Origin: a virus
Reading direction: 5' to 3' (one strand)
Virus record (IMG/VR): IMGVR_UViG_3300023178_002130
Span: 1-44,924 of that record
Length of the DNA: 44,924 bases
Shown: piece by piece, positions 6,326 to 32,380 of the stretch
How positions within the stretch are numbered: position 1 is the stretch's first letter
Layout: the number at the start of each line of letters is the position of its first letter
Notes under the pieces: model-generated
Seen by the model: only the letters and a program-made list of their open reading frames with translations
Database searches by the model: none
Told to the model about the DNA's origin: nothing
Program-made: the position numbers and the translations under genes

Positions 6326-6333
6326 CTATTTAT
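6326..6333 (-). promoter_or_regulatory. T4-late-like promoter box
   Basis: Minus-strand GCATAAATAG ends only five bases before the ATG at 6321 and contains the TAA stop of uvsE. A transcript from it would be nearly leaderless. Confidence 0.35.
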
Positions 6334-7439
6334 GCATATATTTTTCCTGCGAAGTCTTTTGCCATTGAGTTATAATCTTCTGTTGCTAGACCATATTTGT
6401 ATAGGTCAATACTAGCAAGATTCTTAGACTTAGACTCGACCATAATGTCTGCGTAATCTAAAAATTCTAATGCCCAGTCGTTAACAGCATTATTCCACAT
6501 AAAGTCAGAATGTGCTCTAAGTTTTTGCTTCTTAAAGCCTTGCTCTAATAGCGAATCCATATTAGGTAAAGAGTTATCATCATGGTCTACTAGTAGATCT
6601 TCGCGTGAAACTGAGTAATGAATAACAGGTCTTACTCCACGCCAACTGTCAACTATACGTAAAAATCTATCGTCGGTGGGCGATATGTATTCTCCACTAG
6701 CAACCCAGTGGTGGTGTATGTCCAATACGAGAGCGACATGCTTTTCAAGTTCGAGGCTTGCGTCAATGCCCCAAGACATTTCGTCGTTTTCGATTGTGAT
6801 TGCGTTTCGCGCTTCTGGCGAGAGTCTCGGTAAGACGTCGATGATGCCTTGTGGACCTTTTCGACCCGATATGTGTACGTTGCATTTAAAGTCTTGGAAG
6901 GTGCGGCCGTATCCCATCCAGCGCAAGACATCGGTGTGATATTCAAATTCTTCTATGCTCCTCTCAACAATTTCCGGATTATCCGAGGCAAGTACAGTAA
7001 ATTGTCCCGGATGCATTGATAGTCGGACGTCAAGGGCTCTTGCGGTTTCTCCAACTTTTGCGAATTCTTTTTCACAGTATGCAACCACATCCGGCTTGCG
7101 CCAAAAATAACACCAAGTAGGCTCGGTATAAACAGGAAGTACATCACTACCCAATCTGACCATTCTAAGTTGAGGGGGAAGACTTCCAACATATTCAATC
7201 AACCTTCTGTATGACGCTATGTTGTGGACCATAATGTCCCACAAGCGTTCTTCAGCAACATCACGTGTTTGCCTATTGAGCCACGCAACTGTTGTGCTAC
7301 GAGTATTTAGTGGTCGCTGTATCTCCTCAAGCAATTTCTTCTTCTGTGTTTGATCAGGATACATGTATTTGCATGCAAAACCTATGCGTTTTTGTTGTGC
7401 TTTCAAAAAGTCACCTGCTGTTGTAAATTTTAAATCCAT
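6330..7439 (-). CDS. uvsE: UV-damage endonuclease UvsE/UVDE
   Basis: 369-residue TIM-barrel nuclease that nicks DNA 5' of UV photoproducts using metal ions, starting an alternative excision repair. Family segments are clear: MHPGQFTVLAS, NVHISGRKG, TIENDEMSW, LVLDIHHHW and HYSVSRED followed by AHSDFMW. The His, Glu and Asp residues in these segments are the metal ligands. The ATG at 7439 is chosen because it overlaps the stop of the upstream gene (TAATG) and gives MDLKF; an eight-residue upstream extension would lie inside that gene. Fits a phage exposed to surface sunlight. Confidence 0.95.
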   Translation of the reverse strand: MDLKFTTAGDFLKAQQKRIGFACKYMYPDQTQKKKLLEEIQRPLNTRSTTVAWLNRQTRDVAEERLWDIMVHNIASYRRLIEYVGSLPPQLRMVRLGSDVLPVYTEPTWCYFWRKPDVVAYCEKEFAKVGETARALDVRLSMHPGQFTVLASDNPEIVERSIEEFEYHTDVLRWMGYGRTFQDFKCNVHISGRKGPQGIIDVLPRLSPEARNAITIENDEMSWGIDASLELEKHVALVLDIHHHWVASGEYISPTDDRFLRIVDSWRGVRPVIHYSVSREDLLVDHDDNSLPNMDSLLEQGFKKQKLRAHSDFMWNNAVNDWALEFLDYADIMVESKSKNLASIDLYKYGLATEDYNSMAKDFAGKIYA

Positions 7440-8158
7440 TATATTTCTTCTAGTAATTGCCACGTTTCTTTATAATCTTTAACATTATAACACATACCTA
7501 AGTCACTGTCAATGATCTGTTTTTTAAGAGGATAATCATTTCCTGCTTTATCCATCCTATCACCAAAAAAGTGTAATTCATCATTTATATCAAAGTCGTG
7601 TAGTATTTGACTTTTATCACTACCCTTGAGTCCAATATCAATACCTGTTTCTCCTCCAGGTCTTGCTTCTAACTCTGGAAAGAGCAAATTAAACTTTCCA
7701 GCTATTTTATTTCTTTCGTTATGTTCGAGATCATATTTTACATACAATTTGCGTTCGCCCAGTGTAGCATTGCGCCCAACTACGCTGTAATTTGTCATTC
7801 CGTGTCTATGTTCAAAATGTAGCCCAGTTCTTAACGGAAAAGCACTACTAGTGAGCTCAATCGACAACCATTCGTGTGCATCTTCTGGTAATGTCCATTC
7901 GGAGTGTTTAATATTAACTTTGCCTTCCCAAACATCATTACCGTTACATTGATAAACACGTTTGCACAAGTTATAAGTTGGTTCTGTAATCTGTTCTATA
8001 GTTTTAGGTTTATCACTACCTGTTACAAGATATACGTCATTGACCATAGAGAACGCATTAAAGAATGCTCTAAAGTCATAGTCCATTCTACCTCTGCTAG
8101 GAGTCAATGTTCCGTCTACATCAAATATATATTTTATCGCCAATTTTCTACTACCCAT
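7439..8158 (-). CDS. Eukaryotic-type phosphomannomutase-like HAD phosphatase
   Basis: 239 residues of the HAD IIB/PMM family. FDVDGTLTPSRG (Asp13, Asp15) is the nucleophile loop, YSVVGRNA and DIGLKGSDKSQIL are the cap and substrate-binding segments, and FFGDRMDKAGNDYPL carries the acidic metal site. PMM converts mannose-6-phosphate to mannose-1-phosphate, which feeds GDP-sugar synthesis. The start at 8158 gives the usual N-terminus and overlaps the glycosyltransferase gene by 25 bases; a TTG six codons on is the alternative. Its place between a glycosyltransferase and a repair gene suggests sugar metabolism, perhaps capsid or surface glycans, but this is inference. Confidence 0.85.
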   Translation of the reverse strand: MGSRKLAIKYIFDVDGTLTPSRGRMDYDFRAFFNAFSMVNDVYLVTGSDKPKTIEQITEPTYNLCKRVYQCNGNDVWEGKVNIKHSEWTLPEDAHEWLSIELTSSAFPLRTGLHFEHRHGMTNYSVVGRNATLGERKLYVKYDLEHNERNKIAGKFNLLFPELEARPGGETGIDIGLKGSDKSQILHDFDINDELHFFGDRMDKAGNDYPLKKQIIDSDLGMCYNVKDYKETWQLLEEI

Positions 8159-8943
8159 GGATCTTTGCAATGTTCTGGATTTGGATCTCCGTGGAAAACA
8201 CACACGCAACATTCTATTCGAGGTACACAGTTTTCCACTACCTTAAATGTTCTTTTTCCTCTGACGCCGCCTGGTTCAAAATCTCTACTTTGTCTTACTT
8301 CCCATTTCCAACTTTGTGTCCAACTATCTGGATATAACATTGCGGCTTTTTCTTTATGTGTTACATCATACAAGTAGTCTTGATCACCAAAGAACAGTTT
8401 TTGATATTTTTCTGGATCTTGTTTATACTTGTCCCAAACAAACCCCAGTTCTCCTGTTTTAAACTTTATAACCGAACTGTTATACTTTTGATAACTAGGA
8501 CGCATAGCTCGAGTGTAGTCTTTTACAATGCACCAATGATTAGGTTGCCAAGTTAATAACTTATCTATATTACCGCTTATAACAACATCTAAATCTAAGT
8601 ACAGTATAGTTCCTTTAATGGGAAGATCTTTAGAAAACATATAAGGCTTGCACCACCACCCATGTAAGCCTTTTGGTAAGTTGAGTATTTGTATGTTAGG
8701 ATCTAACCCCATTGGATCGTCTGTAAGACATGCAAACTTATAGTCTAACGTACAATTACGTTTTACCATATTATACAATTTGTTTACATAATCTGCAGAA
8801 TATTTTGTGCCATGTTTAAGACATAACACAAAATAATCCTGCGGAAGTGTAGAAATAAGTTTACTAGCCTTTGCTTCTCTGCGTTCGGCCTTAATCTTTA
8901 ACCATTCTTCCTTAGTGTATTGACTCTTATCAATCTTTGCCAT
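8134..8943 (-). CDS. GT-A-fold glycosyltransferase-like protein
   Basis: 269 residues. The DxD motif in LYLDLDVVISGNIDKLL (about residues 145-160) is the metal/nucleotide-sugar site of GT-A enzymes, similar to family 8-like transferases. The FACLTDDP and GDQDYLYD segments fit that fold, and the C-terminal CVCVFHGDPNPEHC is His/Cys-rich. The start at 8943 (MAKIDKSQ) overlaps the queD stop by 14 bases; the longer frame has no support. Sugar donor and acceptor are unknown. Adjacent PMM-like and sugar-related genes suggest one pathway. Confidence 0.75.
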   Translation of the reverse strand: MAKIDKSQYTKEEWLKIKAERREAKASKLISTLPQDYFVLCLKHGTKYSADYVNKLYNMVKRNCTLDYKFACLTDDPMGLDPNIQILNLPKGLHGWWCKPYMFSKDLPIKGTILYLDLDVVISGNIDKLLTWQPNHWCIVKDYTRAMRPSYQKYNSSVIKFKTGELGFVWDKYKQDPEKYQKLFFGDQDYLYDVTHKEKAAMLYPDSWTQSWKWEVRQSRDFEPGGVRGKRTFKVVENCVPRIECCVCVFHGDPNPEHCKDPWVVENWR

Positions 8944-18032: not shown

Positions 18033-18217
18033 AGTTCTTCTACTATTCCTAGAAGTTCTGCAACTAAAAACAATCCTGGCAACCACATAATATTTGCGCC
18101 AAGCAATACAGCCACACACCCTGCAATTCTTAAGCCACTTTTTACTAAACTAATATAAAAATGCTTAAGGCCAGGATCTTTAGACGCTGGAATAATGACT
18201 TTTTCAGGAATAGGCAT
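18029..18217 (-). CDS. Small membrane protein
   Basis: 62 residues. Hydrophobic segments about residues 23-40 and 44-58 (GLRIAGCVAVLLGANIMW, GLFLVAELLGIV). Starts by TAATG overlap with clpP and ends by ATGA overlap with the DUF2693-like gene, so it is translated as part of the clpP operon. Function unknown. Confidence 0.7.
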   Translation of the reverse strand: MPIPEKVIIPASKDPGLKHFYISLVKSGLRIAGCVAVLLGANIMWLPGLFLVAELLGIVEEL

Positions 18218-18804
18218 TAGCGTTTCTCTACAATTTGATCTACTAAGCCATAATCAAGAGCTTCTTGGGCAGACATAAATGTATCTCTGTCCATGTCTCT
18301 TTCAAATTCTTCGTAGGTCTTACCTTTTGAATTATGCTTTACATATAATTCAGTTAAGGTTTCTTTCATCTTTGTGATTTCCTTATACTGAATTTCAATG
18401 TCACTTGCCATGCCTTGTGTTCCGCCACTAGGTTGATGGATCATGTGTCGTGCATAAGGTAACATTTTACGTTTGCCTGGTTCACCTGCCTGTGCAAGGA
18501 AACTACCCATACTACATGCTTGTCCTAACACAATAGTATGTACAGGCGATTTAATAAATTGCATAGTGTCATAAATGCTCATGCCACTAGTAATAACGCC
18601 TCCTGGGCTATTAATGTAAAAGTTAATAGGCTTGTCTGGATTTTCACTTTCCAAGAACAACATTTGTGCTACAATTAGATTAGCACTATTATCTTCAACA
18701 GGACCATTCAGCATAACTATGCGGTCTTTAAGAAGTCTACTGTAAATATCGTATGAACGTTCGCCTCTTGACTCTTGCTCAACAACCATAGGAATTAGCG
18801 GCAT
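18217..18804 (-). CDS. clpP: ClpP serine protease subunit
   Basis: 195 residues, full length for processed ClpP. Catalytic triad visible: Ser98 in ACSMGSF, His123 in [10 protein letters not shown] and Asp172 in ERDMDRDTF; the [17 protein letters not shown] and [12 protein letters not shown] segments are typical. ClpP forms a 14-mer barrel that needs a Clp ATPase; none is in this window, though a ClpS adaptor is encoded at 42386-42697. Start overlaps the upstream stop. Probably remodels host proteolysis or matures virion proteins. Confidence 0.97.
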
Positions 18805-21559: not shown

Positions 21560-21998
21560 ATTGATGGTCCTTGTAATCTATTAAATCTTCCAATGTTTTA
21601 ATATAGAACTTTCCGTTCTTAATTTGCATAGTAGTAGTGCCACCATTACTTCTAATATATTGTCGTCCGCCGTCAATCATCTTGCCTTCTACTACTTTAT
21701 AATCGTGATGTGATTGACTGTAATAGTACTTACCGTCTACTTCGATCATGCCGAACTCAAGTGATTCTACAATGTCTGCATCGGTAATCATAAGATGACC
21801 TCTAACGTGGTCGTGATACAAGCCAAAATAACGGTTACCAAACTCAGGGTGTGGCGTTGCTCTATAGTACACATCAACAGGCACATCACTAGCATTAAGA
21901 TCTGTAGTGCAAACATATGTCACAGGTACTCCGTCTTTTTTACTATAATGTTCTGTAACAAGTGCTACATCAAAATTAGGATTATGTTCAATGTTCAT
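21552..21998 (-). CDS. Hypothetical protein
   Basis: 148 residues, beta-rich with many His/Tyr (FGLYHDHVRGHLMITDADIVES; YYYSQSHHDYKVV). No clear catalytic motif; the histidines could bind metal. Starts within the tilS-like gene's 3' end (11-base overlap). Not recognised. Confidence 0.65.
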   Translation of the reverse strand: MNIEHNPNFDVALVTEHYSKKDGVPVTYVCTTDLNASDVPVDVYYRATPHPEFGNRYFGLYHDHVRGHLMITDADIVESLEFGMIEVDGKYYYSQSHHDYKVVEGKMIDGGRQYIRSNGGTTTMQIKNGKFYIKTLEDLIDYKDHQYE

Positions 21999-22590
21999 CT
22001 GCTTTTACCTTCTTAGCAATAACTTTATGAATACCGGGATTTACTCGTAAAATATTAGGCATCATTTCATGTCTAATATAGTTACGTGTGAATTTCGTAT
22101 CTTTATTCGACTTGTCTTCGATATAAGGCACTGATTTTAAATCTGCCCAAAGTTCTAAGTCACGTTTGCGGGTAAGGCGAAAAGGACGAATAACATTACG
22201 ATTGTTATACGGAATAATTTTACCTTGTCCATGCATGCTACTCCATACCCAAGTTTCTACACAATCATCTAAGTGATGTGCTGTCACAATTGGAGAATTA
22301 AAACTATGAAAATATTCATACCGTTTAATTCTCCAATACTCTTCCCAACTTTCTCCAGACGCTTTATTGTACTGTTTAGGGATACTACCATACACGAACC
22401 CAACATCGTATGCTACGGCCTGTTCTGATACAAATTCTAATGCTTCTTTGCTTGTTTCAGTTCCGTGATCAAAAAAACAAAGTGTTAGATTATGATTTCT
22501 ATGCAAGAAATCAAATACCGCCATACTGTCTACACCGCCAGAGCAGGCAACAAAAATATCTCTAGGTAGTTTATTTTGAAGTTTGATCAT
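21988..22590 (-). CDS. TilS-like PP-loop ATPase (N-terminal domain only)
   Basis: 200 residues. The PP-loop CSGGVDSMAVFDFL, then FFDHG, TAHHLDDCVETWVW, VIRPF and EDKSN followed by RNYIRH match tRNA(Ile)-lysidine synthetase TilS. Bacterial TilS is 320-450 residues; here only the catalytic N-terminal domain is present. TilS turns the CAU anticodon of tRNA-Ile2 into lysidine. No tRNA-Ile(CAT) is in this window, so the target would be a host tRNA or one elsewhere in the genome. Overlaps neighbours by 11-20 bases. Confidence 0.88.
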   Translation of the reverse strand: MIKLQNKLPRDIFVACSGGVDSMAVFDFLHRNHNLTLCFFDHGTETSKEALEFVSEQAVAYDVGFVYGSIPKQYNKASGESWEEYWRIKRYEYFHSFNSPIVTAHHLDDCVETWVWSSMHGQGKIIPYNNRNVIRPFRLTRKRDLELWADLKSVPYIEDKSNKDTKFTRNYIRHEMMPNILRVNPGIHKVIAKKVKADEH

Positions 22591-22789
22591 CGCACCACTC
22601 TGTCCAAGGAATAATCTCCATGTTATCGCCGTGGCCTTCAGTCTTCAGCATTTTTTGCTCGATCAAACTGTCGATGATCTTGTCAGTTACATTATAAACC
22701 GCATGTTTATATCCAAAATAAAACCCAAGCAGAGTGCCTACAATATATGCAAGTAATAACCAACTAGTGCTTTCACTAAAAAACTCCAT
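22571..22789 (-). CDS. Small single-span membrane protein
   Basis: 72 residues. One span at about residues 10-27 (LLLAYIVGTLLGFYFGY), then a charged helix and a Trp/Asp-rich tail. Shares a base with the stop of the next upstream gene and overlaps the tilS-like gene by 20 bases. Function unknown. Confidence 0.7.
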   Translation of the reverse strand: MEFFSESTSWLLLAYIVGTLLGFYFGYKHAVYNVTDKIIDSLIEQKMLKTEGHGDNMEIIPWTEWCDDQTSK

Positions 22790-22935
22790 TATACATTTTC
22801 CTTGTCAATAGGGTTACCATAATAATCGTGTGTACCAGCTCTATACGCCTGCTTCCTTTCATCAAGGATTTGAGACGATACCCAACATATCCATCCACCA
22901 ACAATGCATAATATAATTCCAAATAAAGTTTCCAT
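22789..22935 (-). CDS. Small single-span membrane protein, 48 aa
   Basis: Begins METLFGIILCIVGGWICWV, a single N-terminal membrane span, followed by a hydrophilic tail (QILDERKQAYRAGTHDYYG). Its stop TAA overlaps the ATG of the next gene (TAATG). Two bases separate it from the upstream stop. Likely translated in series with the other small membrane gene; function unknown. Confidence 0.7.
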   Translation of the reverse strand: METLFGIILCIVGGWICWVSSQILDERKQAYRAGTHDYYGNPIDKENV

Positions 22936-22937
22936 AG

Positions 22938-23744
22938 TTATACCTTATAAAGTTTTACATAATTAAGTCTAGTCTCATCGGCACTAAACAAACGGTTTTT
23001 TGTATGATCTTTTACTTTTGCTTTAATCCTTTTCATGGACCCAACTTCGTGATCAAACTTGTTCATAAACGAAACTAGGTTACCGTCAATTACACCAGTA
23101 TAGTTAAAACTTTCCCACCTTGCACTGTAGCGTTTATCTAAAAACTTTATAACGCCTTCAACAGCAGCACCTATAGGAGAAATGTGTTTGCTATCACGGT
23201 ACTCTATACGAATCTCTTTCTTTAGTCCACTTTCGTGTTGATCACGTTTGATAAATTCTGGAGCAAATGCAATTCGACCCATACCTTTAAGAGGTACTTC
23301 TTCTTTGCTAAGTTCCTCAATCATGTCACGTTTAAAATCATCAAGGTCAGCTAAACCAAGCATTACATATCGTTTCATCCACTTACGTGCTTCTTCTACC
23401 TTGACATAGTCTTCTTCAGTAGGCTCAAATGTAGGGAAGTCAGTTGGAACCCAGTCAACACCGTTCTTTTTATCATAGTAATAACGCACAAGATCTTTGT
23501 TAGGAAATTGTGTTGGCGCTTCATCAAACCGACGAATATCTTTGATGTAAGTTTCCTTGTTAATACGATAAGCCGCATATGCAACAGCAAGTGCATCTGT
23601 AAGTTTTACAGTTTTAAGCGGAAGCGGTTTACGACTAATAGGACGATCGTCTTCGTCTTGCAATTCATACGCTAGTTCCATACGCTTAAATTCAGCTTTG
23701 CTCATTGCACCCCAATCAAGAGTGTTTGGATCTGGTAATGACAT
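22938..23744 (-). CDS. Hypothetical phage protein, first gene of the clpP-region operon
   Basis: 268 residues with start at 23744: GAGG seven bases upstream favours MSLPDPN over a GTG/ATG five codons earlier. Mixed alpha/beta with an acidic PTFEPTEEDYVKVEEARKW middle and a basic C-terminus (MKRIKAKVKDHTKNR). It follows a perfect sigma-70-type promoter, and its leader copies that of the HD hydrolase gene. Heads about 15 tightly coupled genes down to the tRNA cluster. Not recognised. Confidence 0.75.
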   Translation of the reverse strand: MSLPDPNTLDWGAMSKAEFKRMELAYELQDEDDRPISRKPLPLKTVKLTDALAVAYAAYRINKETYIKDIRRFDEAPTQFPNKDLVRYYYDKKNGVDWVPTDFPTFEPTEEDYVKVEEARKWMKRYVMLGLADLDDFKRDMIEELSKEEVPLKGMGRIAFAPEFIKRDQHESGLKKEIRIEYRDSKHISPIGAAVEGVIKFLDKRYSARWESFNYTGVIDGNLVSFMNKFDHEVGSMKRIKAKVKDHTKNRLFSADETRLNYVKLYKV

Positions 23745-23778
23745 TTTTGTGCCTCTCATTTGCCTAATTTATGTATAT

Positions 23779-23807
23779 ATTATAGCAAATAGTGCTAAGG
23801 TTGTCAA
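23779..23807 (-). promoter_or_regulatory. Sigma-70-type promoter of the clpP-region operon
   Basis: Minus strand: GG then TTGACA (23802-23807), 17-base spacer, TATAAT (23779-23784). Perfect hexamers. It begins two bases before the stop of the methyltransferase gene. Confidence 0.92.
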
Positions 23808-23808
23808 C

Positions 23809-24960
23809 CTATTTTTTAAACAAATATATACCCTCAGACTTGTATGCATTGTTTAGTTTGTCATTTCCTACACCTGGTCTTACGTTAAGAATCATATCTA
23901 TTTTCTCTAAATACTTAAATCCTATACTTTCACTAATCTGTTTCCATCTGTCTACAATCTTGTATTCGTTCGGTGGAATTTTGTAGTCAGCAATATTAAC
24001 AGCATAGTACCCGTCTTTTGCAAGAGCTGTGTATAGCATTTCAACAGTAGGTGATACATAGTTATCAAACCATTCGTCTAAACTAGTACAACTGTTCATA
24101 CACTGTGTAGGTTCGTCGGTATAAGTTTCTAGATTAAAATAAGGAGGACTACTAAAAGCCGCATCATAATGTCCTTCTTTTGGCTTAAACTGTTCACTAG
24201 GTACATGGTGCATTTCATATCCGCTTCCTAGTCCTAATTCAGTCATTAGCTCACCTAGTGCAACAAGTCCATTATATGTTTTCGTATTAGGATCAATACC
24301 CGTGTAATGGTATCTTAGATTGCTTGTAAGGGCGCCTAGCATGCGTCCTCCGTAGCCTGAACTAAAGTCCAACACATTACCCATAAACACAGGACAGATA
24401 TATTCATATACGGCTTTTGCATTAAGCGGTTTGAAGTTTGCAATAGTGCCACCACTCACAAGATCTAATGCACGGCGTATGTTCGCAGGTAGCACACTAC
24501 GTTCACCTTCATCTCTATACTTATAGCAAAAACTAATTGCTCTTTTTAGCCTTTTGTCGTCATAAAACCGGGATCGCATACTAACCATCTTGTCGTTTTT
24601 ACTATATGCTTCTTGCATATTAGGAAACCAAAACCTACTGAAGTGTTGTCCTTCAGTTTGCCCTACTCCTATCTTACCATCTGCTACGTTATGCGACTTT
24701 TTACCAATTTCTAATAATGCTGTTTTGCACCCTTCAAGATTAAAATATGTAATTGGAATAATATTAATAGAACGGTACAGTTCGAACACTTCATCTTCTA
24801 TCTTCTGTCGGCCTTCTTCACTTTCTAATAGCCAACGTTCTTTACTGTAGGACTTTAGTTGATCGTATACCTGTTCATATCCTGTATATATTAAGTCTGT
24901 AGGTGTTACTCCCCATTCATTACAGATATGATTATAGTATTCAATTATAGTATTTGTCAT
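23809..24960 (-). CDS. DNA methyltransferase (SPPY type)
   Basis: 383 residues. Motif I VLDFSSGYGGRMLGA (about 196-210) binds S-adenosylmethionine; the next acidic residue is in YTGIDPN. Motif IV SSPPYFNLETY (271-274 is SPPY) is the catalytic loop of N4-cytosine/N6-adenine methyltransferases with an (S/D)PP(Y) site. The N-terminal 180 residues are specific to this protein and may recognise DNA. It overlaps the adjacent methyltransferase-fold gene by 20 bases and ends an operon with a helicase and SprT-like protease. Confidence 0.85.
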   Translation of the reverse strand: MTNTIIEYYNHICNEWGVTPTDLIYTGYEQVYDQLKSYSKERWLLESEEGRQKIEDEVFELYRSINIIPITYFNLEGCKTALLEIGKKSHNVADGKIGVGQTEGQHFSRFWFPNMQEAYSKNDKMVSMRSRFYDDKRLKRAISFCYKYRDEGERSVLPANIRRALDLVSGGTIANFKPLNAKAVYEYICPVFMGNVLDFSSGYGGRMLGALTSNLRYHYTGIDPNTKTYNGLVALGELMTELGLGSGYEMHHVPSEQFKPKEGHYDAAFSSPPYFNLETYTDEPTQCMNSCTSLDEWFDNYVSPTVEMLYTALAKDGYYAVNIADYKIPPNEYKIVDRWKQISESIGFKYLEKIDMILNVRPGVGNDKLNNAYKSEGIYLFKK

Positions 24961-26113
24961 ATATCTTTTTTACAGTTTTTTCATTTTTATAATGAGGTAT
25001 ACGTTGCCAAAATGTTGTGCCGTTAGCAGGACTAGTTGCATTTAATGCTAAAACTAATTCTGTTATATACTCACTATTGTAATATTCTATAACTTTGTCT
25101 GCTTCTGTTTTGTCTTTTACACCAATCCAAATAGCATTATGTCCTGTGCCATATTTTGGACTTGCATACTTTAGAACACTTTTTTTGCCTCTATTACCGT
25201 TCTTACTAATTACTACTTTGTGTTTACCTACACCTTCTCTAGGTGTAATAATACTTTTATCTACACCTATTGTCTTTTTGTATGGTCCATCTGCCCAACC
25301 TACTTGATAAATCAGCTCTACATCGCCGGGGTTATTAACAACTTCTTTTGCGTTGGCATAATACGAGCCGTACTGTGCTTCAAATGGATCTAGTTCTAAG
25401 TTAATAATTTCTGATGCATATTGATATTGTTTTAAATTTACACCTGGCAAGTAAATTGGATTATTTACAATAACTGAGTGTTCGTCACTTACAAATTCAA
25501 CTTTCTTACTTGCTTCAGGAGCAAAGTACATTGCACAAAGAGGTACACTAGTATCAGATACTCCTAAAAACCGATAACGTGTAAGTTCGTGTATATGTGT
25601 TGTAGCATATCTACACTTGTTTGGTCGTGTAATAATTAGTGTATTAGGAGCAATTCTTCTAAAATGATGTACAAAGTCATTTGTAGTATTAAATTGCACT
25701 CCGCTAACTACACAAGTAACTGTAGTCTCTACGTCTTTAAAGTCTGCTTGAGTAATATTAAATTCAAACGTTTTATCGTTAAGTGCCTTTTTAAAATTAG
25801 TTTTACATACTAATACTTGCAAACTATCAATGTCACTAGCAAATATTTGTTTTGTAAAAATGTGCTTTAAACGTTCTTTTTCATTGGGAATACTTGGGGC
25901 TAGTGCATCCATTAATCGTTTAACAAGATACAATAAGAGTGTTCCACTACCACATTGTGGATCAAGATAAGTGCTTTCTGGATTTTCTAATATACTAGTA
26001 TCAATTAAATCCAAAGCTCGATTAGCATCTTTTTCTGTAGCAATACTCTGTATGCTACTACTATCATATGCTTGAATTTGCTTTAGTCGCTTGTCTATAT
26101 TATTGATAATCAT
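24941..26113 (-). CDS. N6-methyltransferase-fold protein with degenerate motif IV
   Basis: 390 residues. YLDPQCGSGTLLLYLVKRL (about 49-67) is a good motif I, and IFASDIDSLQVLVCKTNF (about 90-107) fits the acidic motif II of Eco57I/HsdM-type enzymes. Where NPPY or NPPF is expected, the sequence is CVVSGVQFNT (about 134-143), so the catalytic loop looks lost. The C-terminal half (about 215-390) has a target-recognition-like basic pattern and WIGVKDK. It may be a DNA-recognition subunit working with the intact methyltransferase next to it. Overlaps the helicase gene by 14 bases. Confidence 0.75.
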   Translation of the reverse strand: MIINNIDKRLKQIQAYDSSSIQSIATEKDANRALDLIDTSILENPESTYLDPQCGSGTLLLYLVKRLMDALAPSIPNEKERLKHIFTKQIFASDIDSLQVLVCKTNFKKALNDKTFEFNITQADFKDVETTVTCVVSGVQFNTTNDFVHHFRRIAPNTLIITRPNKCRYATTHIHELTRYRFLGVSDTSVPLCAMYFAPEASKKVEFVSDEHSVIVNNPIYLPGVNLKQYQYASEIINLELDPFEAQYGSYYANAKEVVNNPGDVELIYQVGWADGPYKKTIGVDKSIITPREGVGKHKVVISKNGNRGKKSVLKYASPKYGTGHNAIWIGVKDKTEADKVIEYYNSEYITELVLALNATSPANGTTFWQRIPHYKNEKTVKKIYDKYYN

Positions 26114-28256
26114 AGTATTGCCCTAATGCTCGATTGACGCCTATTGTGTTAATACTAGGCATTATACTATTCCATTCGTCTACAGTCAAGCCAGTTACTT
26201 GTTCAACAATATCACTATCAAACTTTGCTATATCTTGTATCTTTTCTAGCTCAAAATCGTTTGCCCATGCAATATCTGCTAACTTGTAAATTTGTTTCAA
26301 ACTGTATCTAATACGTGACATTGCAATACTAACTGGATCATTTTCTGTAGGTTCACCCTTCTCGCTAGTACCTGATTTACGTTTTTTGTTTGTGCCTTCT
26401 TCAATGTCATTACTGTTTATATCTGTGCTTGCTTTGTTAGTATTAGAATCTTTTTGTTTACCCTCTAGCAACAAACATATCGCATCGTTGATCATATCTT
26501 TCTTAACACAGGCACCTATGCGATCGATATGATTAACGATATCAGCAAGGAATTTACTACTAACATCTTTGCCTGTAAGCATATTCCAAGTGTTACCATC
26601 ATAGTCATATACATCACTAACATCTAACCATTCGCTAATTACGCTTTCTGTAGTTGTATCACTTGAGTCTGCAACTCGTTCACAATAATTGTAAACTACA
26701 CTTACAAATCGCTCTGGTGCATAGTCAAATACTACAACACTTTCTTTGCCATCTGCAGGTGATTTGCAACGGAAACTACCTTGGAAGTAATCTGCTGCAC
26801 TCTTATCATTATTAATTTGGTGTACACTCCACCATTCAGGTACAGTAGTACCTTCTAGAAATCTACCACATGTAATAGTAATTGTGCCAGCGCCGCCGTC
26901 ATGGTCATTTCGTGCAATCAAGTCTTTAACCTGCTGTATGTTTCTAACACCTTTACCACTTGCATTTATTATTTTACGTTTACCAAAGAACGGGTGCGAT
27001 TGTAATGCCTTAACAAATAAACCAATTGCTTCTACATTATCGGGCAATACAAAAAGAGTATGACGGCAAAGTTTGTCTGCTACCTTACTGTAACGCTTTG
27101 GTGGTTTCTTGAAGTTTTGTACAAGGAAGTTAATAAATTCGTTTACTCCCATTACATTTTTAAAAGCGCCGTCTTCTGTAGCAAACAATTTGCTAAATGT
27201 AAAACCTTCATCTCCTAGATACTGTTTCACTTTGTCTGGAACATTAACTAGAGCATAGTTTATGTCTGCACGTTTACGGAACTGGTCTGTTAAAAAGTCA
27301 TCATTGTTTAAGTCAAGTAGTTGCTTACGTATTGTTTGTTCGTCAATGTAATCAAAGTTGTAAACATCTTCAGCACTATATCTACCACTTAGCATTGTCT
27401 TGTAAGGTGTACCACTAAGTTCGTATTTCTTTTTAAAATTTAGACTTTTCCAAAGACGCTGTGTATTGTCTGTAGTTGTAGCATAATGCTGCTCATCAAA
27501 AAATACTGTATCCCATTCTGTTGCTAGTATGTCCTTTAGTAACTGATTAGGATTATCCCAGTGTTTGTTTATAAATTGCAAACTTACAAAAACAACATCA
27601 GTACCAGTAAATTCTAATTTTTTAATTTTTTTATAGTTATGATATTTCCAACCTGAATAGTTAATGTGGTTTTCTTCGCCGCCTGGCAATAGAGCAGACC
27701 AACTATCGTTTACTCCTACTTTTGCTGTAACTACTAAGATCTTCTTTGCAGATTGTTCTCGTGCTATTTCGTAACTGATGCGGCATTTGCCTGCTCGCAT
27801 AATAGCGTTAATAAGCATGTCATCAGATACTTTACTACGTTCTACAGCCCAATCAATTATGTCTTGCTGATAAGGAAAACTATCCCAATCTTCTAGTGCT
27901 TCTACACCATTTATAAGTTCGTTTAAAACAGACTTAACAACATTACATGCTTCGTTTGCTGTTTCACACTCTGGAAAATCAAACCATTCACGGTTTTTGT
28001 CATCTCTACTTTTTATGTAACCTTTACGTTGCAGAGCTTTGTGCAATACTTTGTCAGTAATATGCACAGGAACTTTACGTTCAAAAACTTTTTTTAGAGG
28101 TTCACTATTAGATGTGCCGTCTTGTTGTTCGATACGGTCATCTGCGGTAAGCATTGTTTCGCCTACTTTCAAACGTACATTAAAGACTTCACCGTCAATA
28201 GTTGCGATTGACTTTTTGCTTTGGCTCTTAGTTGTGTAGTTGTAAATTGTATGCAT
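26100..28256 (-). CDS. SF2 helicase (type I/III restriction-enzyme-like)
   Basis: 718 residues, start at 28256 (TAATG overlap with the SprT-like gene). Motif I is unusual: MRAGKC (153-158, Lys157) for the usual GxGKT. Then motif Ia-like LVVTAKVG, motif II DEQH (254-257), motif III SGTP (281-284) and a motif VI-like QGSFRCKSP. This resembles the helicase part of type I/III restriction subunits. I see no clear PD-(D/E)XK nuclease at either end. A charged linker (about 600-640, Asn/Lys/Glu/Thr-rich) precedes a helical C-terminal domain. Likely DNA translocase partner of the adjoining methyltransferase proteins. Confidence 0.85.
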   Translation of the reverse strand: MHTIYNYTTKSQSKKSIATIDGEVFNVRLKVGETMLTADDRIEQQDGTSNSEPLKKVFERKVPVHITDKVLHKALQRKGYIKSRDDKNREWFDFPECETANEACNVVKSVLNELINGVEALEDWDSFPYQQDIIDWAVERSKVSDDMLINAIMRAGKCRISYEIAREQSAKKILVVTAKVGVNDSWSALLPGGEENHINYSGWKYHNYKKIKKLEFTGTDVVFVSLQFINKHWDNPNQLLKDILATEWDTVFFDEQHYATTTDNTQRLWKSLNFKKKYELSGTPYKTMLSGRYSAEDVYNFDYIDEQTIRKQLLDLNNDDFLTDQFRKRADINYALVNVPDKVKQYLGDEGFTFSKLFATEDGAFKNVMGVNEFINFLVQNFKKPPKRYSKVADKLCRHTLFVLPDNVEAIGLFVKALQSHPFFGKRKIINASGKGVRNIQQVKDLIARNDHDGGAGTITITCGRFLEGTTVPEWWSVHQINNDKSAADYFQGSFRCKSPADGKESVVVFDYAPERFVSVVYNYCERVADSSDTTTESVISEWLDVSDVYDYDGNTWNMLTGKDVSSKFLADIVNHIDRIGACVKKDMINDAICLLLEGKQKDSNTNKASTDINSNDIEEGTNKKRKSGTSEKGEPTENDPVSIAMSRIRYSLKQIYKLADIAWANDFELEKIQDIAKFDSDIVEQVTGLTVDEWNSIMPSINTIGVNRALGQYYDYQ

Positions 28257-28732
28257 TAGTCTAACTGTGTCCATTTATATTTTGCAAGATCGTTTGCTTC
28301 AGCCCAACGGATAAACAAACCGGTTTCACGCCCATGAGCTTCTATTTCCCACGGATGGTCCCAGTAGTCTTTTACACACTGTCGGTTATTAGATAACCAT
28401 TCGCCTTTCCAGCGATGCATACCTAAGTTTATTGATTCATATAATTCGCCTCTAGCAAACTGTTTTACATGTACCATTTCATGTGCAACAGTTTCAAGCA
28501 TTCTACGCATCTTAACTTTTCTATTAATTTCTACGTCGAATTGACGTGGACGTGATGTATCAGCTTCATCAGCAGGTAATGCATACCCATATGCTGAATC
28601 TTTTCCAAAATCTTTAAGGACTATGTTTACTTCAAGAGATTTCATTCTAGGCATGAGTTTCTTGATACAAAACTCAGCCATTGACATTGCTAGTTCACGT
28701 TGACGTTCTGAGCCACCTTTGACAAAGATCAT
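28256..28732 (-). CDS. SprT-like zinc metalloprotease
   Basis: 158 residues. The HEMVH zinc site (84-88) with a following HxxQ (HVKQFARG), and a distal WEIEAHGRE that could give the third ligand, match SprT/Spartan-like zincins. Such proteases act on DNA-bound proteins in other systems. First gene after a perfect sigma-70-type promoter, directly before a helicase and two methyltransferase-fold proteins. The start follows GAGGG by ten bases. Confidence 0.85.
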   Translation of the reverse strand: MIFVKGGSERQRELAMSMAEFCIKKLMPRMKSLEVNIVLKDFGKDSAYGYALPADEADTSRPRQFDVEINRKVKMRRMLETVAHEMVHVKQFARGELYESINLGMHRWKGEWLSNNRQCVKDYWDHPWEIEAHGRETGLFIRWAEANDLAKYKWTQLD

Positions 28733-28753
28733 AGGAAATATCCCTCTATTTGC

Positions 28754-28784
28754 TTACATGTTATACAACTATTATAGCATGTAA
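28754..28784 (-). repeat. Inverted repeat flanking the SprT promoter -10 box
   Basis: TTACATG (28754-28760) and CATGTAA (28778-28784) are perfect inverted copies 17 bases apart, bracketing the TATAAT box at 28771-28776. The geometry fits a repressor operator. Confidence 0.4.
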
Positions 28785-28799
28785 AGTAGGGTGTGTCAA
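28771..28799 (-). promoter_or_regulatory. Sigma-70-type promoter of the SprT/helicase/methyltransferase operon
   Basis: Minus strand: GG then TTGACA (28794-28799), 17-base spacer, TATAAT (28771-28776). Perfect consensus. The -35 side ends at the stop codon of the infA-like gene. Confidence 0.92.
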
Positions 28800-28800
28800 C

Positions 28801-29019
28801 CTAAAGTCTAAAGGTAATTCTACCTTTTGAGAGATCATATGGACTCATTTCTACACGTACCATATCACCTTGGATCATTTTAATTTTGAATTGACGCATT
28901 TTACCTGAGGTATAGCAGGTAATTTCATGGTCATTCTGTAGTTTTACAGTAAACATATTATTAGGGAGAACTTTAACAATTTCTCCCTCTAATTCTATTA
29001 GGCCTTTATCCTTCGACAT
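28801..29019 (-). CDS. infA: Translation initiation factor IF-1
   Basis: 72 residues, exactly the length of bacterial IF-1. [20 protein letters not shown], then the [27 protein letters not shown] and ITFRL segments match IF-1 across the whole length, including the OB-fold and the ribosomal A-site-contacting [11 protein letters not shown] phage copy could favour initiation on phage messages or replace the host factor. It follows the AbrB-like gene with a 14-base overlap. IF-1-like genes in phages are uncommon to my knowledge. Confidence 0.95.
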
Positions 29020-29206
29020 TTTCTTCTTTTTTAGATAATACGATTTGACCTTCTGACCATTCTACTGATAAGACATCGCCTTCTTTCCACCCCATTTTTT
29101 CTAATATTTCAGGTGGAATTGTCATATTAACATTATTAGGATCATCTGGGATGTCTGTGAAGATGTCCTCTGCTTTGAATGTAAAATTAGCTGTTTCTTC
29201 GCTCAT
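29006..29206 (-). CDS. AbrB/SpoVT/MazE-type DNA-binding protein
   Basis: 66 residues. The C-terminal half [20 protein letters not shown] then [15 protein letters not shown] is a swapped-hairpin AbrB fold. The acidic N-terminus (about 25 residues) is unlike typical MazE. No toxin gene adjoins it, so a transcriptional regulator is more likely than an antitoxin. AAGGAG and a full TATAAATA box precede the ATG. Confidence 0.85.
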
Positions 29207-29225
29207 TAAGTACTCCTTAGGTAAA

Positions 29226-29233
29226 TATTTATA
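29226..29233 (-). promoter_or_regulatory. T4-late-like promoter box (shared divergent site)
   Basis: Minus-strand ATATAAATATTTACC gives TATAAATA before AAGGAG and the ATG at 29206. The plus strand of the same bases reads GTAAATATTTATATG, so one AT-rich element may also serve the gene starting at 29233. Confidence 0.55.
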
Positions 29234-29646
29234 TGAAGGACGAATATGTTAGTGCCTTTAGAGGCGTTGTCCAACATACGCAAAACGATACAGGATTCAC
29301 GTTACCTATACACATTGAATCTTATATTGTATTGCTGTTAGCAAATTTTGTCGAGAAACCGGATTTCTTGCCAAACACTTCTTTTGCTGAAAGTTTCTTA
29401 AACAACCAAAGTCCGAAAGAACTTGCTGATACTTGTCTTTTTGTATCAGGGGTCTTTCCTGACTTTGGCTCCAAACACGGCATATCTCGCAGATATTATC
29501 AAGATATAGGTATATCATCTTATGATATAGTATCCAATACTCTTAACACTGACTTGTTTTCAGATCTATCAAAACACTTTGTATTTCTAAGCAATTTTAT
29601 AGAACTGTCTACTAGAGAAACTGAAATCAAAGATTTATTCTTCTAG
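29233..29646 (+). CDS. Hypothetical phage protein
   Basis: 137 residues on the plus strand. The central ELADTCLFVSGVFPDFG, followed by ISRRYYQDIGISSYDIVS, has the look of a small helical protein I associate with phage and bacterial hypothetical families (a LxxxxLFVSGxF...YYxxIGxxxY pattern). No Shine-Dalgarno precedes the ATG, so it may be leaderless. Converges on and overlaps the next gene by 12 bases. Confidence 0.65.
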   Translation: MKDEYVSAFRGVVQHTQNDTGFTLPIHIESYIVLLLANFVEKPDFLPNTSFAESFLNNQSPKELADTCLFVSGVFPDFGSKHGISRRYYQDIGISSYDIVSNTLNTDLFSDLSKHFVFLSNFIELSTRETEIKDLFF

Positions 29647-30372
29647 AAGATTATCTTCGTAACCTTCCCAAAATCCTTCTTCTTCAAGCATGTCGTCTGT
29701 ATACTGTTCAGGTTTATCATGCCACTTCTTATTAAAGTATCCGACAGACGCATAGTACCCTTTGCCAGTTGTATCATTGTAATCATAGTTTGGTTCTAGT
29801 TCTACCTTGTCATACCAAACATTTTCTACAAGTTCACACAAGTTCATTTCAATTGAACTAAATGCTAATTTCTTAGGATTAAAATCTTCACCATCGGTTT
29901 CTACAAACCAACATGCAAAGCCTCCTTTTTCTCCGCTATGGAAAGCAAGAACAGGAACAACTTTATCTAGGTCTGCTTCTTCTACATGTGTAGTAGCACT
30001 TTCATAACTTTCGTCATTATGATATGCTTCTCTACCATACATATGATAAGGTTCAAATTCTACGTCATCGTCATATGCAAAGTCGTCTGAACCATCTGCT
30101 GGAACTTCTGTGTACACCCAAGTACCGTCAGCATAAGCATTGTTTTGATGTTCAAATTCATCACACTCGTACCAAGCATAAAATTCGTCTCGAGGTTTTG
30201 GTGCATCTGCTAGACCCATATCTTCATCTTCCCATTCATAACTTTGAAGAGTGTCGATAAGATCTGATTCATCTTTATCAATAAAAAATTCAACAAATTC
30301 TTTGCTGACTTCTCCAATAACAGATTCTCCACCGTACCTGCCAGCTTCAATTCTAAATCTACGTTTTGCCAT
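29635..30372 (-). CDS. Hypothetical acidic phage protein
   Basis: 245 residues, very acidic with many Tyr, Trp and Asp (for example YAWYECDEFEHQNNAYADG). The N-terminus MAKRRFRIEAGRYGGESVIGE is beta-like. A very strong AAGGAGG ribosome site lies eight bases before the ATG, implying high expression. Resembles conserved hypothetical proteins of marine T4-like phages. A DNA-mimic role is possible from charge alone but unproven. tRNA-Arg lies immediately upstream. Confidence 0.75.
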   Translation of the reverse strand: MAKRRFRIEAGRYGGESVIGEVSKEFVEFFIDKDESDLIDTLQSYEWEDEDMGLADAPKPRDEFYAWYECDEFEHQNNAYADGTWVYTEVPADGSDDFAYDDDVEFEPYHMYGREAYHNDESYESATTHVEEADLDKVVPVLAFHSGEKGGFACWFVETDGEDFNPKKLAFSSIEMNLCELVENVWYDKVELEPNYDYNDTTGKGYYASVGYFNKKWHDKPEQYTDDMLEEEGFWEGYEDNLLEE

Positions 30373-30397
30373 AATAGGTCCTCCTTAAGACTCTGTT

Positions 30398-30474
30398 TGG
30401 CGCGGCTGAAGAGATTCGAACTCCTGACCCTTGGTTTCGTAGACCAATGCTCTATCCAGCTGAGCTACAGCCGC
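30398..30474 (-). tRNA. tRNA-Arg (ACG)
   Basis: 77 bases with encoded CCA. GCGGCTG/CAGCCGC acceptor, TTGGT-CTACGAA-ACCAA anticodon arm, GTTCGAA T-loop. Just 12 bases after its promoter. Confidence 0.95.
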
Positions 30475-30486
30475 GTAATTTATTAT

Positions 30487-30515
30487 ATTATAATTGGTTT
30501 TCATCTATGTGTCAA
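30487..30515 (-). promoter_or_regulatory. Sigma-70-type promoter of tRNA-Arg and the acidic gene
   Basis: Minus strand: GG then TTGACA (30510-30515), 17-base spacer, TATAAT (30487-30492). Perfect consensus; the TGA stop of the 51-aa gene lies inside the -35 box. Confidence 0.92.
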
Positions 30516-30667
30516 CCTTGTTTTATAAGTTTTAAAATTTCTTTTAGTAGCTCGCCGTTTCTTACAGCCAATTGTTTAACTCTATCTATTTCAGTTTCGC
30601 ACTCGTTTAAAAGTTTTTTAATTTCTGCAACATCTTTTGCAATGTGTCCTTGAGTAGGATATCCCAT
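30512..30667 (-). CDS. Small coiled-coil protein, 51 aa
   Basis: Begins MGYPTQGHIAKDVAEIKKLL, then a charged helix with Leu/Ile/Val heptads (about residues 10-48). Coupled to the upstream oxygenase by a TAATG overlap. Its stop is part of the next promoter's -35 box. Function unknown. Confidence 0.65.
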   Translation of the reverse strand: MGYPTQGHIAKDVAEIKKLLNECETEIDRVKQLAVRNGELLKEILKLIKQG

Positions 30668-31215
30668 TAGTACTCCAAGTCTGCCGCAACTATAAATCTG
30701 TCTTCTTCACAATTTAGTATTCCTGGCCTGTGCCAAGTTTCGCCAGGATAGATCATCCAATGTCCGTGTTTCCAAGGTACAAAGTATTTTCCTTCTCCTT
30801 CAACTCCATTTGGTGCAAGCTCAGTTCCTGCTGTCTCTAAATCGTTGTCTACATCTACTGGTAAGTGCAAATAGTAAACTCCACTTATAGTAGTAGTAGA
30901 AGTGTCGTGATTGTGATGATGCCACAAGATATCTCTATCTTCGGGATCTTTTAGACTAGTACGGTAACTCCAACTTTGTATATTTTTAATTTTTACTTCC
31001 TTTTCCATAAAAGCAAAACACGACCATATAAAACTCATTTTTAGATTTGTCCAATAACTTTGGGGCAAGCCAAAAATGTTTATATTGGTTTGATACTTAG
31101 GACTGTTTGTCCAGTAGTTACCTTTTGCAATAAGATGATTAATATCTTTGCACATATTAAAACGCATGTCTGGAGTAATCAAATGATTCCAGTTATAAAA
31201 TTCATGAACTTTCAT
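30667..31215 (-). CDS. 2OG-Fe(II) oxygenase-like protein
   Basis: 182 residues. DILWHHHNHDTSTTTISGVYY carries the first metal ligands, and HGHWMIYPGETWHRP then EDRFIVAAD gives the distal His and an Arg for 2-oxoglutarate. Same fold as the gene immediately upstream, with which it overlaps by 14 bases, so the two may act together. Substrate unknown. Confidence 0.8.
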   Translation of the reverse strand: MKVHEFYNWNHLITPDMRFNMCKDINHLIAKGNYWTNSPKYQTNINIFGLPQSYWTNLKMSFIWSCFAFMEKEVKIKNIQSWSYRTSLKDPEDRDILWHHHNHDTSTTTISGVYYLHLPVDVDNDLETAGTELAPNGVEGEGKYFVPWKHGHWMIYPGETWHRPGILNCEEDRFIVAADLEY

Positions 31216-31777
31216 TAACTTCCTTTTTTACAATTACACTATCAAACGCAATACTAAATCTTGCGTTGCTACTTTCCTCACTGTGGGCAACAAAGTGCCA
31301 CATCCAAGACGGAAATACTAAAAGTAAATCAGACTTAGGTGGAATGAATAATTGTTCGCTGTTAAAACTGTTAAAGTTTTTTATGTGTTCGGGTCTAATA
31401 ACATGTGCTAGTTCATGGTTAGGACTTGTAAATCCTAGCGGGCTAGAATTTTCGTCAGCCTGTGGATAATAGACAGCTGAAAAGAATGCCCCTGGATGCC
31501 TATGCATCCTTGTAATTGACTGATTGCAAAAACTGTTGACCCAGAACTGTTTGATACGCTGTTCGTAATCGTCGCTAAATTCTAACTTTGTGTGTAGCTC
31601 GTCTAAGAACTGTGTAATCTTTCCTCCTAGTTCGAGGAAAACAGATTCACCTGGGTCAACAAAAATTCCGTCATTATCTTTTACTCGCTCTTTACAAAAC
31701 TCTATAAGTGCTTCTCTATTTGATACACCTAATTCTTTGTAGGCGATAAAATTAGTAAAGACTGAATCAATCTGCAT
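31202..31777 (-). CDS. 2OG-Fe(II) oxygenase (TIGR02466-like)
   Basis: 191 residues. RMHRHPGAFFSAVYY is the HxD/HxxG-type metal segment; LLVFPSWMWHFVAHS followed by NARFSIAFD gives the distal His and Arg. Closest in this window to the oxygenase at 15963-16550. Joined by a one-base overlap to the peroxiredoxin gene upstream, so oxygen-using and peroxide-removing enzymes share a transcript. Confidence 0.85.
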   Translation of the reverse strand: MQIDSVFTNFIAYKELGVSNREALIEFCKERVKDNDGIFVDPGESVFLELGGKITQFLDELHTKLEFSDDYEQRIKQFWVNSFCNQSITRMHRHPGAFFSAVYYPQADENSSPLGFTSPNHELAHVIRPEHIKNFNSFNSEQLFIPPKSDLLLVFPSWMWHFVAHSEESSNARFSIAFDSVIVKKEVNESS

Positions 31778-32334
31778 TAACTTGCTTTCAAGTATTCGAG
31801 TATAGCTTCTGGGGAAGTTTCACCGTATGGATCAGTTGGACAGTTATCTTCTTGTCCTGGTTCAACAAATGCTTTTTCAACTACTCCGTCGTTTACAACC
31901 ATAGCATAGCGCCATGAACGATTGCCAAAGCCTAGATTGTCTTTGCATACAAGCATACCCATCTTTTCAGTAAATTCGCCTGTACCGTCTGGAATGAATT
32001 TGATCTTTTTAACTTCTTGATCAATCATCCATTTACGCATTACAAACGTATCATTAACACTGATAACATAAATGTCATCTACATTTTGTGCAATAATATC
32101 GTCATATAAATCTTCGAAACCGGGAACTTGGTAGGTTGAGCATGTTGGTGTAAATGCACCAGGTAGTGAAAACACTACAATTCTTTTACCATCAAAAATG
32201 TCTTTTGTATTGACAGTTTTCCAATCAAATGGATTTTCGTCTCCATTGTCTTTGTTAACATAAGTGATAGGGAACCCGTCTGTTCTAACTCTATACTTAA
32301 AATCAACTTCAGGTAGTTGCATACCTTCTTTCAT
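31777..32334 (-). CDS. Peroxiredoxin (Prx5-like)
   Basis: 185 residues, start at 32334 with AGGAG upstream. FSLPGAFTPTCSTYQVPG carries the peroxidatic Cys65; a late NCPTDP has a second Cys (about 167) that may resolve the disulfide. The AMVVNDGVVEKAFVE region fits Prx5. Reduces peroxides, probably protecting the infected cell under light or oxidative stress. First gene of a run with two 2OG oxygenases. Confidence 0.93.
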   Translation of the reverse strand: MKEGMQLPEVDFKYRVRTDGFPITYVNKDNGDENPFDWKTVNTKDIFDGKRIVVFSLPGAFTPTCSTYQVPGFEDLYDDIIAQNVDDIYVISVNDTFVMRKWMIDQEVKKIKFIPDGTGEFTEKMGMLVCKDNLGFGNRSWRYAMVVNDGVVEKAFVEPGQEDNCPTDPYGETSPEAILEYLKAS

Positions 32335-32350
32335 TAATTTACTCCTAATC

Positions 32351-32380
32351 AAAAAAAAATGTTAGTAAGGCACTAACATT
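32351..32380 (-). terminator. Terminator-like hairpin in the peroxiredoxin leader
   Basis: Minus-strand AATGTTAGT-GCCTT-ACTAACATT (32358-32380), a nine-base perfect stem with a five-base loop, followed by nine U residues counting the stem end. It lies between the promoter (32384-32412) and the gene's AGGAG, starting close to the expected transcription start. It could end antisense read-through from 33 kb, act as an attenuator, or cap the message. Confidence 0.65.

Follow-up and report, generated by a model that had tools for sequence, protein, structure and literature searches.

A conserved three-gene phage cassette proposed to be a split, Type ISP-like restriction-modification system

The 44,924-base viral record IMGVR_UViG_3300023178_002130, analysed at its full length and called the window here, carries on its minus strand three overlapping genes that recur in the same order in other viral contigs. 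The first, HEL, encodes a restriction-type helicase of superfamily 2 (SF2 ATPase) with an N-terminal nuclease-type domain (724 amino acids, 26100-28274); the second, DM, a TaqI/Eco57I-type methyltransferase fold that lacks NPPY and has a predicted C-terminal recognition domain (390 amino acids, 24941-26113); and the third, SPPY, a methyltransferase with an SPPY motif (383 amino acids, 23809-24960). We propose, at a probability of about 0.5, that HEL, DM and SPPY form a phage-borne, ATP-dependent, split Type ISP-like restriction-modification-type unit, with DM as its presumed specificity subunit and SPPY as its presumed modification subunit. The cassette is real, conserved and restriction-derived, and the restriction function that we predict for it is likely.

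Conservation of the cassette

A HEL profile and a DM profile, each used in a scan of its own, picked out an identical set of 22 viral contigs at the level of the cassette, to which the DM profile added five weaker relatives. The order HEL-DM-SPPY, with overlapping frames, was found in 22/22 contigs. An initial sequence-only reading of the window had set conserved gene order as a test beforehand, with the absence of linked order as its refutation, and for these three genes the linkage turned out to be complete. Judged by the last 300 residues, the 22 contigs represent 14 distinct triples, 13 of which enter several of the comparisons below; the window cassette is 100% identical to those of loci L002 and L003. 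Between the HEL stop and the DM start, 14 bases are shared in 11 of the 13 and 11 bases in two, and DM and SPPY overlap by 20-32 bases. Identities among the 13 range from 39 to 93% for HEL, 30 to 93% for DM (the most distant DM being 30% identical to that of the window) and 57 to 94% for SPPY, and the identity matrices correlate in Mantel tests (r 0.82 for HEL-DM, 0.73 for DM-SPPY and 0.53 for HEL-SPPY, each p 0.0005). The cassette HELs form one clade with a support of 100 in the Shimodaira-Hasegawa-like approximate likelihood ratio test. It is also conceivable that the operon of the window, which begins with the gene of an SprT-like protease, brings together four unrelated stand-alone phage genes under one promoter. 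Members of the SprT and SPPY families are indeed found alone, but the constant linkage, overlap and co-divergence have already refuted this idea for the three-gene core; it holds for SprT only, and as an account of all four genes it is highly improbable.

By eye, locus L004 and the window have flanking genes in common (a redoxin-type gene, a gene of 264/273 amino acids and a ClpP-like gene), whereas L005 has an HNH-like gene on its upstream side and a ligase-like one on its downstream side. Because the flanks of L005 differ from those of the window and L004, the cassette does not seem to be bound to one genomic place. Its carriers include aquatic phage records of 207-345 kb. No isolate among 50,697 phage records carries the cassette, and the best HEL matches there are ~25% identical. 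Searches of the open-licence literature of PubMed Central (PMC), and the available text of PMC7824862, PMC9004378, PMC5512222 and PMC7253447, gave no description of the three-gene set. These searches thus do not contradict the earlier statement that no known system has this exact set, but the close relatives of HEL and DM belong to ordinary restriction-type systems of bacteria.

The DM protein

DM aligns over 366 columns with the NPPY methylases that go with HEL in other loci (hhalign, 99.7%, E 1.5e-26). At the motif IV position (25691-25705, minus strand), aligned with the NPP[YF] of the sister phage and bacterial proteins described below, the window DM reads SGVQF, and NPP[YF] is replaced in 14/14 DMs, with SAIDF, SSIDF, SNLDY, SNVDF, GSIQF and others elsewhere; the loop behind it is shortened in the alignment. 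Motif I is kept in 14/14 (DPQCGSG in the window, at 25943-25963 on the minus strand), and Q53, C54, G55 and G57, together with the acidic D94, are invariant in 13 DMs. We also considered an NPPF string in the freshwater DMs L014, L017, L019, L028, L275 and L276 as a displaced motif IV, and rejected it: the string sits in the linker that leads to the recognition domain, its position is unconserved, and the alignment does not place it at motif IV.

The AlphaFold2 model of DM (predicted local distance difference test, pLDDT, 91; predicted template modelling score, pTM, 0.86) matches M.TaqI (Z 19.9, 313 residues), CamA (18.5) and LlaBIII (16.0), as well as MmeI and BrxX, and the matches span the methyltransferase and the recognition domain. 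The sequence-only reading had described a methyltransferase fold that lost its NPPY loop and carries a recognition-like C-terminus; SGVQF at motif IV confirms the loss, and the modelled fold, through its matches to M.TaqI and CamA, supports the C-terminal assignment. By motif, DM is a degenerate relative and not an active TaqI/Eco57I-type N6 methyltransferase, and we read it as a pseudo-methyltransferase kept for recognition. Mean identity among DMs was 0.49 for residues 30-160, 0.42 for residues 160-260 and 0.48 for residues 260-390; since the recognition domain did not stand out in variability, we do not claim that specificity switches fast.

The HEL protein

Motifs and fold comparison place the SF2 translocase core of HEL at residues 129-581 (26532-27890, minus strand), with the motifs MRAGKC, DEQH and SGTP; DEQH and SGTP, the marks of the restriction-type core noted in the sequence-only reading, were both found. 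ResIII is the sole clear Pfam match of the window HEL (4.6e-7) and is present in 29/29 members of the HEL alignment. For the AlphaFold2 model (pLDDT 83, pTM 0.75), SNF2 ATPases, RadD and the LlaBIII translocase are about equally good matches, at Z 16-17 (16.2 for the LlaBIII translocase region).

The helicase had been described at first as having no clear nuclease, a description that appears to be wrong. Judged by sequence profiles, HEL appears to carry a diverged GIY-YIG-type nuclease-like domain of the T5orf172/MUG113 kind at residues 7-102 (27969-28256, minus strand). The MUG113 match is weak in the window HEL (residues 35-102, E 0.035), but whole-length relatives match T5orf172 clearly: it is found in 12 of the 29 whole-length alignment members (best 5.8e-11; 2.3e-9 in L006), and MUG113 in 14. 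When the N-termini of 13 cassettes were compared with those of 52 bacterial relatives, hhalign gave 97.8% (E 7e-13); the 8 freshwater members by themselves gave 95.0%. All 29 alignment members share Y11 and R47, and all 13 cassette HELs share Y11, R47, H78, E96 and W97. The KxG of the cassette HELs was read by eye; MAFFT had misplaced it in the freshwater HELs. In nucleases of the GIY-YIG type the conserved Y, KxG and R positions have catalytic roles. The GIY-YIG-type assignment comes from the profiles because the whole-HEL fold comparison barely probed residues 1-126.

The SPPY methyltransferase

The SPPY motif (24139-24150, minus strand) was found in the last gene of the operon, where the second methyltransferase had been said to keep it, and is present in 14/14 cassettes. 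All 19 members of the SPPY alignment match phrog_12517 and 16 of them phrog_498 (DNA methyltransferase). A search for solved structures by sequence gave no match for SPPY at E 0.1, the one match seen being insignificant (E 0.43).

This family is large in phages, with at least 543 relatives among at least 599 candidate stretches. A HEL profile run over 20 whole records matched 3/3 cassette records and 0/17 orphan-SPPY records, four of which measure 130-141 kb; because all 17 orphan records are without HEL, SPPY evidently lives well alone. On the SPPY tree the 13 core cassette SPPYs fall in a clade of 28 rows (98/99) together with 15 rows that have no HEL. The HEL label changes four times on this tree, once for a far second SPPY copy in L028, and because four changes are needed the tree fits losses of HEL-DM and repeated gains equally. 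The second copy is a very distant SPPY-like gene ~5 kb upstream of the cassette (L028:607-1650).

A modification machine without restriction would also make use of these three proteins: HEL would move on phage DNA, DM would give specificity and SPPY would methylate the genome fast, or at chosen sites, against host nucleases, the nuclease domain being vestigial. SPPY standing alone in related phages is what would be expected of a protective methylase, and the available text of PMC9004378 reads the methylase of phage Melnitz as possible protection. The diverged N-terminal domain of HEL and its GKC Walker A point the same way. However, the domain is recognisable in all cassette HELs, with its five positions invariant in 13, and an orphan SPPY needs no helicase; we consider a pure modification machine unlikely, though worth keeping in mind.

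Relatives in bacteria and in other phages

Bacterial HEL loci were examined in the best 80 of at least 547 confirmed, with gene partners sought within 4.5 kb. HEL is fused to an NPPY methylase in 21 of the 80 and lies beside one in 50, of which 44 also have a protein with half of an S-adenosylmethionine (SAM) methylase, here called the SAM-half protein; no SPPY gene was found within 4.5 kb of HEL in any of the 80. On named plasmids the trio is annotated as N-6 DNA methylase, Eco57I restriction-modification methylase, and helicase or GIY-YIG nuclease.

Six sister phage loci (L025, L027, L029, L030, L031 and L033) have HEL followed by an NPP[YF] methylase. A small SAM-half protein comes third in L025, L030, L031 and L033; L027 has none there, L029 ends first, and SPPY takes the third place in none of the six. 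A HEL tree made by a quick method, with long branches, sets sister and cassette phages apart from the bacterial and prophage forms. The simplest history would be that a phage lineage of a restriction system lost the methylase motif and gained an SPPY partner.

Two of the phage loci deserve separate mention. The HEL of L030 has GKC, and its NPPY partner is intact; this locus (L030:6902-10849), with its GKC HEL, NPPY methylase and SAM-half partner, is a possible intermediate. In the human gut phage L006 (L006:3109-15435) a split methylase and a GIY-YIG helicase belong to a defence-island-like run that also holds AAA ATPase, McrB-like, McrC-like and PLD-like genes, these four named by eye.

The transcription unit and the SprT-like protease

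In the window the cassette is preceded by the gene of an SprT-like zincin (158 amino acids, 28256-28732, minus strand; phrog_10499, 3.6e-28), which is the first gene of the transcription unit and lies outside the conserved cassette. The sequence-only reading saw four overlapping genes behind one perfect promoter, and we verified the coordinates, the overlaps (19 bases for SprT/HEL, 14 for HEL/DM and 20 for DM/SPPY) and the promoter itself, a perfect sigma-70-type match (TTGACA-N17-TATAAT) at 28799-28771 on the minus strand. The perfect promoter of the next operon (23807-23779, minus strand) starts just beyond the SPPY stop and likely marks the end of the four-gene unit. Because of the promoter before SprT and this second one just past the SPPY stop, we frame the four genes as one transcription unit. 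The window holds seven perfect sigma-70 consensus promoters (at 7484, 9484, 15938, 17270, 23779, 28771 and 30487), all on the minus strand, against 0.10 expected; since such promoters are common in this phage, that of the operon is not special. Promoter-like sites were also seen within the four genes.

The protease had also been suggested as a component that perhaps cuts DNA-bound proteins, a role that we rejected on distribution. An SprT-like zincin lies within 5 kb of the cassette in 2 of 13 loci and on different sides, upstream of it in the window but downstream of it in L004. SprT relatives in Melnitz, Cr30 and cyanophages stand without the cassette, and HEL had no match in any of these phages. 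In five whole carrier records PF10263 gave one match over the cut-off, that of L264, which lies outside the cassette; that of L004 is below the cut-off. SprT is co-transcribed in the window but is outside the system. A zincin is also found near the sister loci L025 and L027, and a simple HExxH pattern turned up none within 5 kb of any of 77 orphan SPPY genes, which leaves room for a loose tie between zincin and cassette. A redoxin-type gene of 191 amino acids, 2.9 kb from the window cassette, matched the HExxH pattern and was not counted as a protease.

Ahead of the operon lie an IF-1-like translation factor (28801-29019; PF01176, 9.8e-25) and, overlapping it, an AbrB/MazE-like gene (29006-29206; 8.2e-8), and downstream of it a TilS-like PP-loop protein (21988-22590; PF01171, 7.1e-29). 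The window further encodes ClpP (18217-18804), UvdE (6330-7463), a phosphomannomutase-like protein (7439-8212), a redoxin (31777-32352) and several 2-oxoglutarate-Fe(II) oxygenases. For its adenylate-cyclase-like protein, identity is 65% with the counterpart in the Methylophilales phages Melnitz and 47% with the one in Pelagibacter phage HTVC008M.

Discussion

If HEL, DM and SPPY do form a split restriction system, DM, a former N6-adenine methyltransferase with a recognition domain, would bind the target DNA and perhaps SAM and would no longer methylate. HEL would dock on DM, translocate by its SF2 motor and cut with its GIY-YIG-type N-terminal domain. SPPY, whose family of stand-alone methyltransferases is widespread in phages, would mark the phage's own DNA, and its mark would block HEL-DM. 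The attack would fall on unmarked DNA, be it that of another phage in the same cell, the host chromosome or both. In its fullest form the proposal makes the cassette a phage weapon built on a new kind of restriction architecture. A pseudo-methyltransferase, by now a pure specificity subunit that possibly senses SAM, would guide an ATP-dependent nuclease-translocase, and the self-mark would come from a recruited orphan phage methyltransferase. The whole would have been assembled about once in aquatic phages, with genomes of up to 345 kb, and would serve either against rivals or for the breakdown of host DNA. We offer this fuller version tentatively, as possible rather than probable.

Several observations weigh against a restriction system. 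Since SPPY stands alone in close phages, it is not tied to restriction; it presumably has a specificity of its own, which may not be that of DM. The nuclease-type domain falls under the Pfam cut-off in the window HEL, and the acidic position ahead of H78 is there a D and not an E. In the fold comparison LlaBIII is no better a match for HEL than SNF2-type ATPases are. The Walker A motif is GKC in 14/14 cassettes, against the GKT of the bacterial-type relatives displayed in the alignment, and this change might make for a weaker ATPase. Finally, nine of the 80 bacterial loci, some of them on short contigs, have an NPPY methylase neither fused nor nearby.

The same machinery might serve chiefly to break down the host chromosome for nucleotides and not to exclude rival phages. 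In a virulent phage most of the substrate would come from the unmarked host chromosome, and giant viruses offer a precedent for virus-borne restriction-modification systems, for which the authors of PMC7253447 suggest a role in co-infections. In the available text of that paper, however, the melbournevirus system leaves host DNA undegraded; breakdown of the host as the chief purpose appears decidedly doubtful.

Should the restriction reading be right, aquatic phages, including those of the 207-345 kb records, would have their own restriction system, and phage-phage exclusion by restriction would become directly testable in aquatic settings. It would also mean that a methylating subunit can lose catalysis and yet stay as a guide once another methyltransferase supplies the mark.

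Comparison with known systems

The sequence-only reading had suggested a split, phage-carried system that is either restriction-modification-like or BREX-like. The constant HEL-DM-SPPY order fits the first part, and BREX (bacteriophage exclusion) was rejected on Pfam scans of the neighbouring proteins. In its modelled fold DM resembles the methyltransferase-recognition arrangement of BrxX/PglX, and among the four operon proteins DM alone gave a PglX match, a weak one (4e-4). Unlike in BREX, neither PglZ nor BrxC stands beside the cassette: Pfam scans of 10 proteins from 21988-31215 found none.

DarB of phage P1 is, according to the available text of PMC5512222, a virion protein that has LPD36 and in which a methylase is followed by a helicase in one polypeptide. 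By analogy, DM and HEL could be an antirestriction dyad of a methylase-like protein and an SF2 helicase, possibly packaged, that shields injected DNA from host Type I enzymes. A phage-borne TaqI-family protein beside an SF2 ATPase recalls the methylase-helicase dyad of polyvalent proteins in that text, and DM, catalytically degenerate by motif, could shield DNA by binding alone. Unlike DarB, the cassette genes are separate, with HEL ahead of DM; the relatives of HEL are chromosomal and plasmid genes beside methylases and have a GIY-YIG-type domain, which is mentioned 0 times in the available main text of PMC5512222. The Pfam scan of the 10 proteins reported no LPD36, although whether Pfam holds that domain was not checked. 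We regard a DarB-like dyad, the main antirestriction alternative, as improbable.

Closer to the proposed restriction system is the bacterial trio of a methylase half (N-6), an Eco57I-type methylase and a GIY-YIG/DEAD helicase (PADLOC PDLC03390, PDLC03375 and PDLC03626, REase_MTase_IIG). HEL is homologous to its helicase over the full length (~25% identity over 97% in L008; 23-29% in genome loci) and DM to its Eco57I-type subunit. The bacterial forms differ in keeping NPPY, in having no SPPY partner and in their usual order of methylase half, methylase and helicase, which is reversed in the cassette. The sister phage systems share the order of HEL and then a TaqI-type protein, but their NPP[YF] is intact and they have no SPPY.

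Type ISP enzymes such as LlaBIII and LlaGI combine a Mrr-family nuclease, an SF2 motor, a methyltransferase fold and a recognition domain in one polypeptide, and cleave after the head-on convergence of two translocating enzymes (available text of PMC4666363). In contrast, the cassette is split into separate genes in the window and in all 22 contigs, its nuclease-type domain is T5orf172/MUG113-like, with no Mrr model among the Pfam matches, motif IV of its methyltransferase fold is lost in 14/14, and a separate SPPY methyltransferase is added. What the two have in common is the SF2 translocase, the TaqI-fold methyltransferase and the recognition domain, and in the LlaBIII structure 4xqk HEL matches residues 175-711 (Z 16.2) and DM residues 837-1441 (Z 16.0). 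If the restriction reading is correct, a split variant would thus join the Type ISP and Type IIG-like enzymes.

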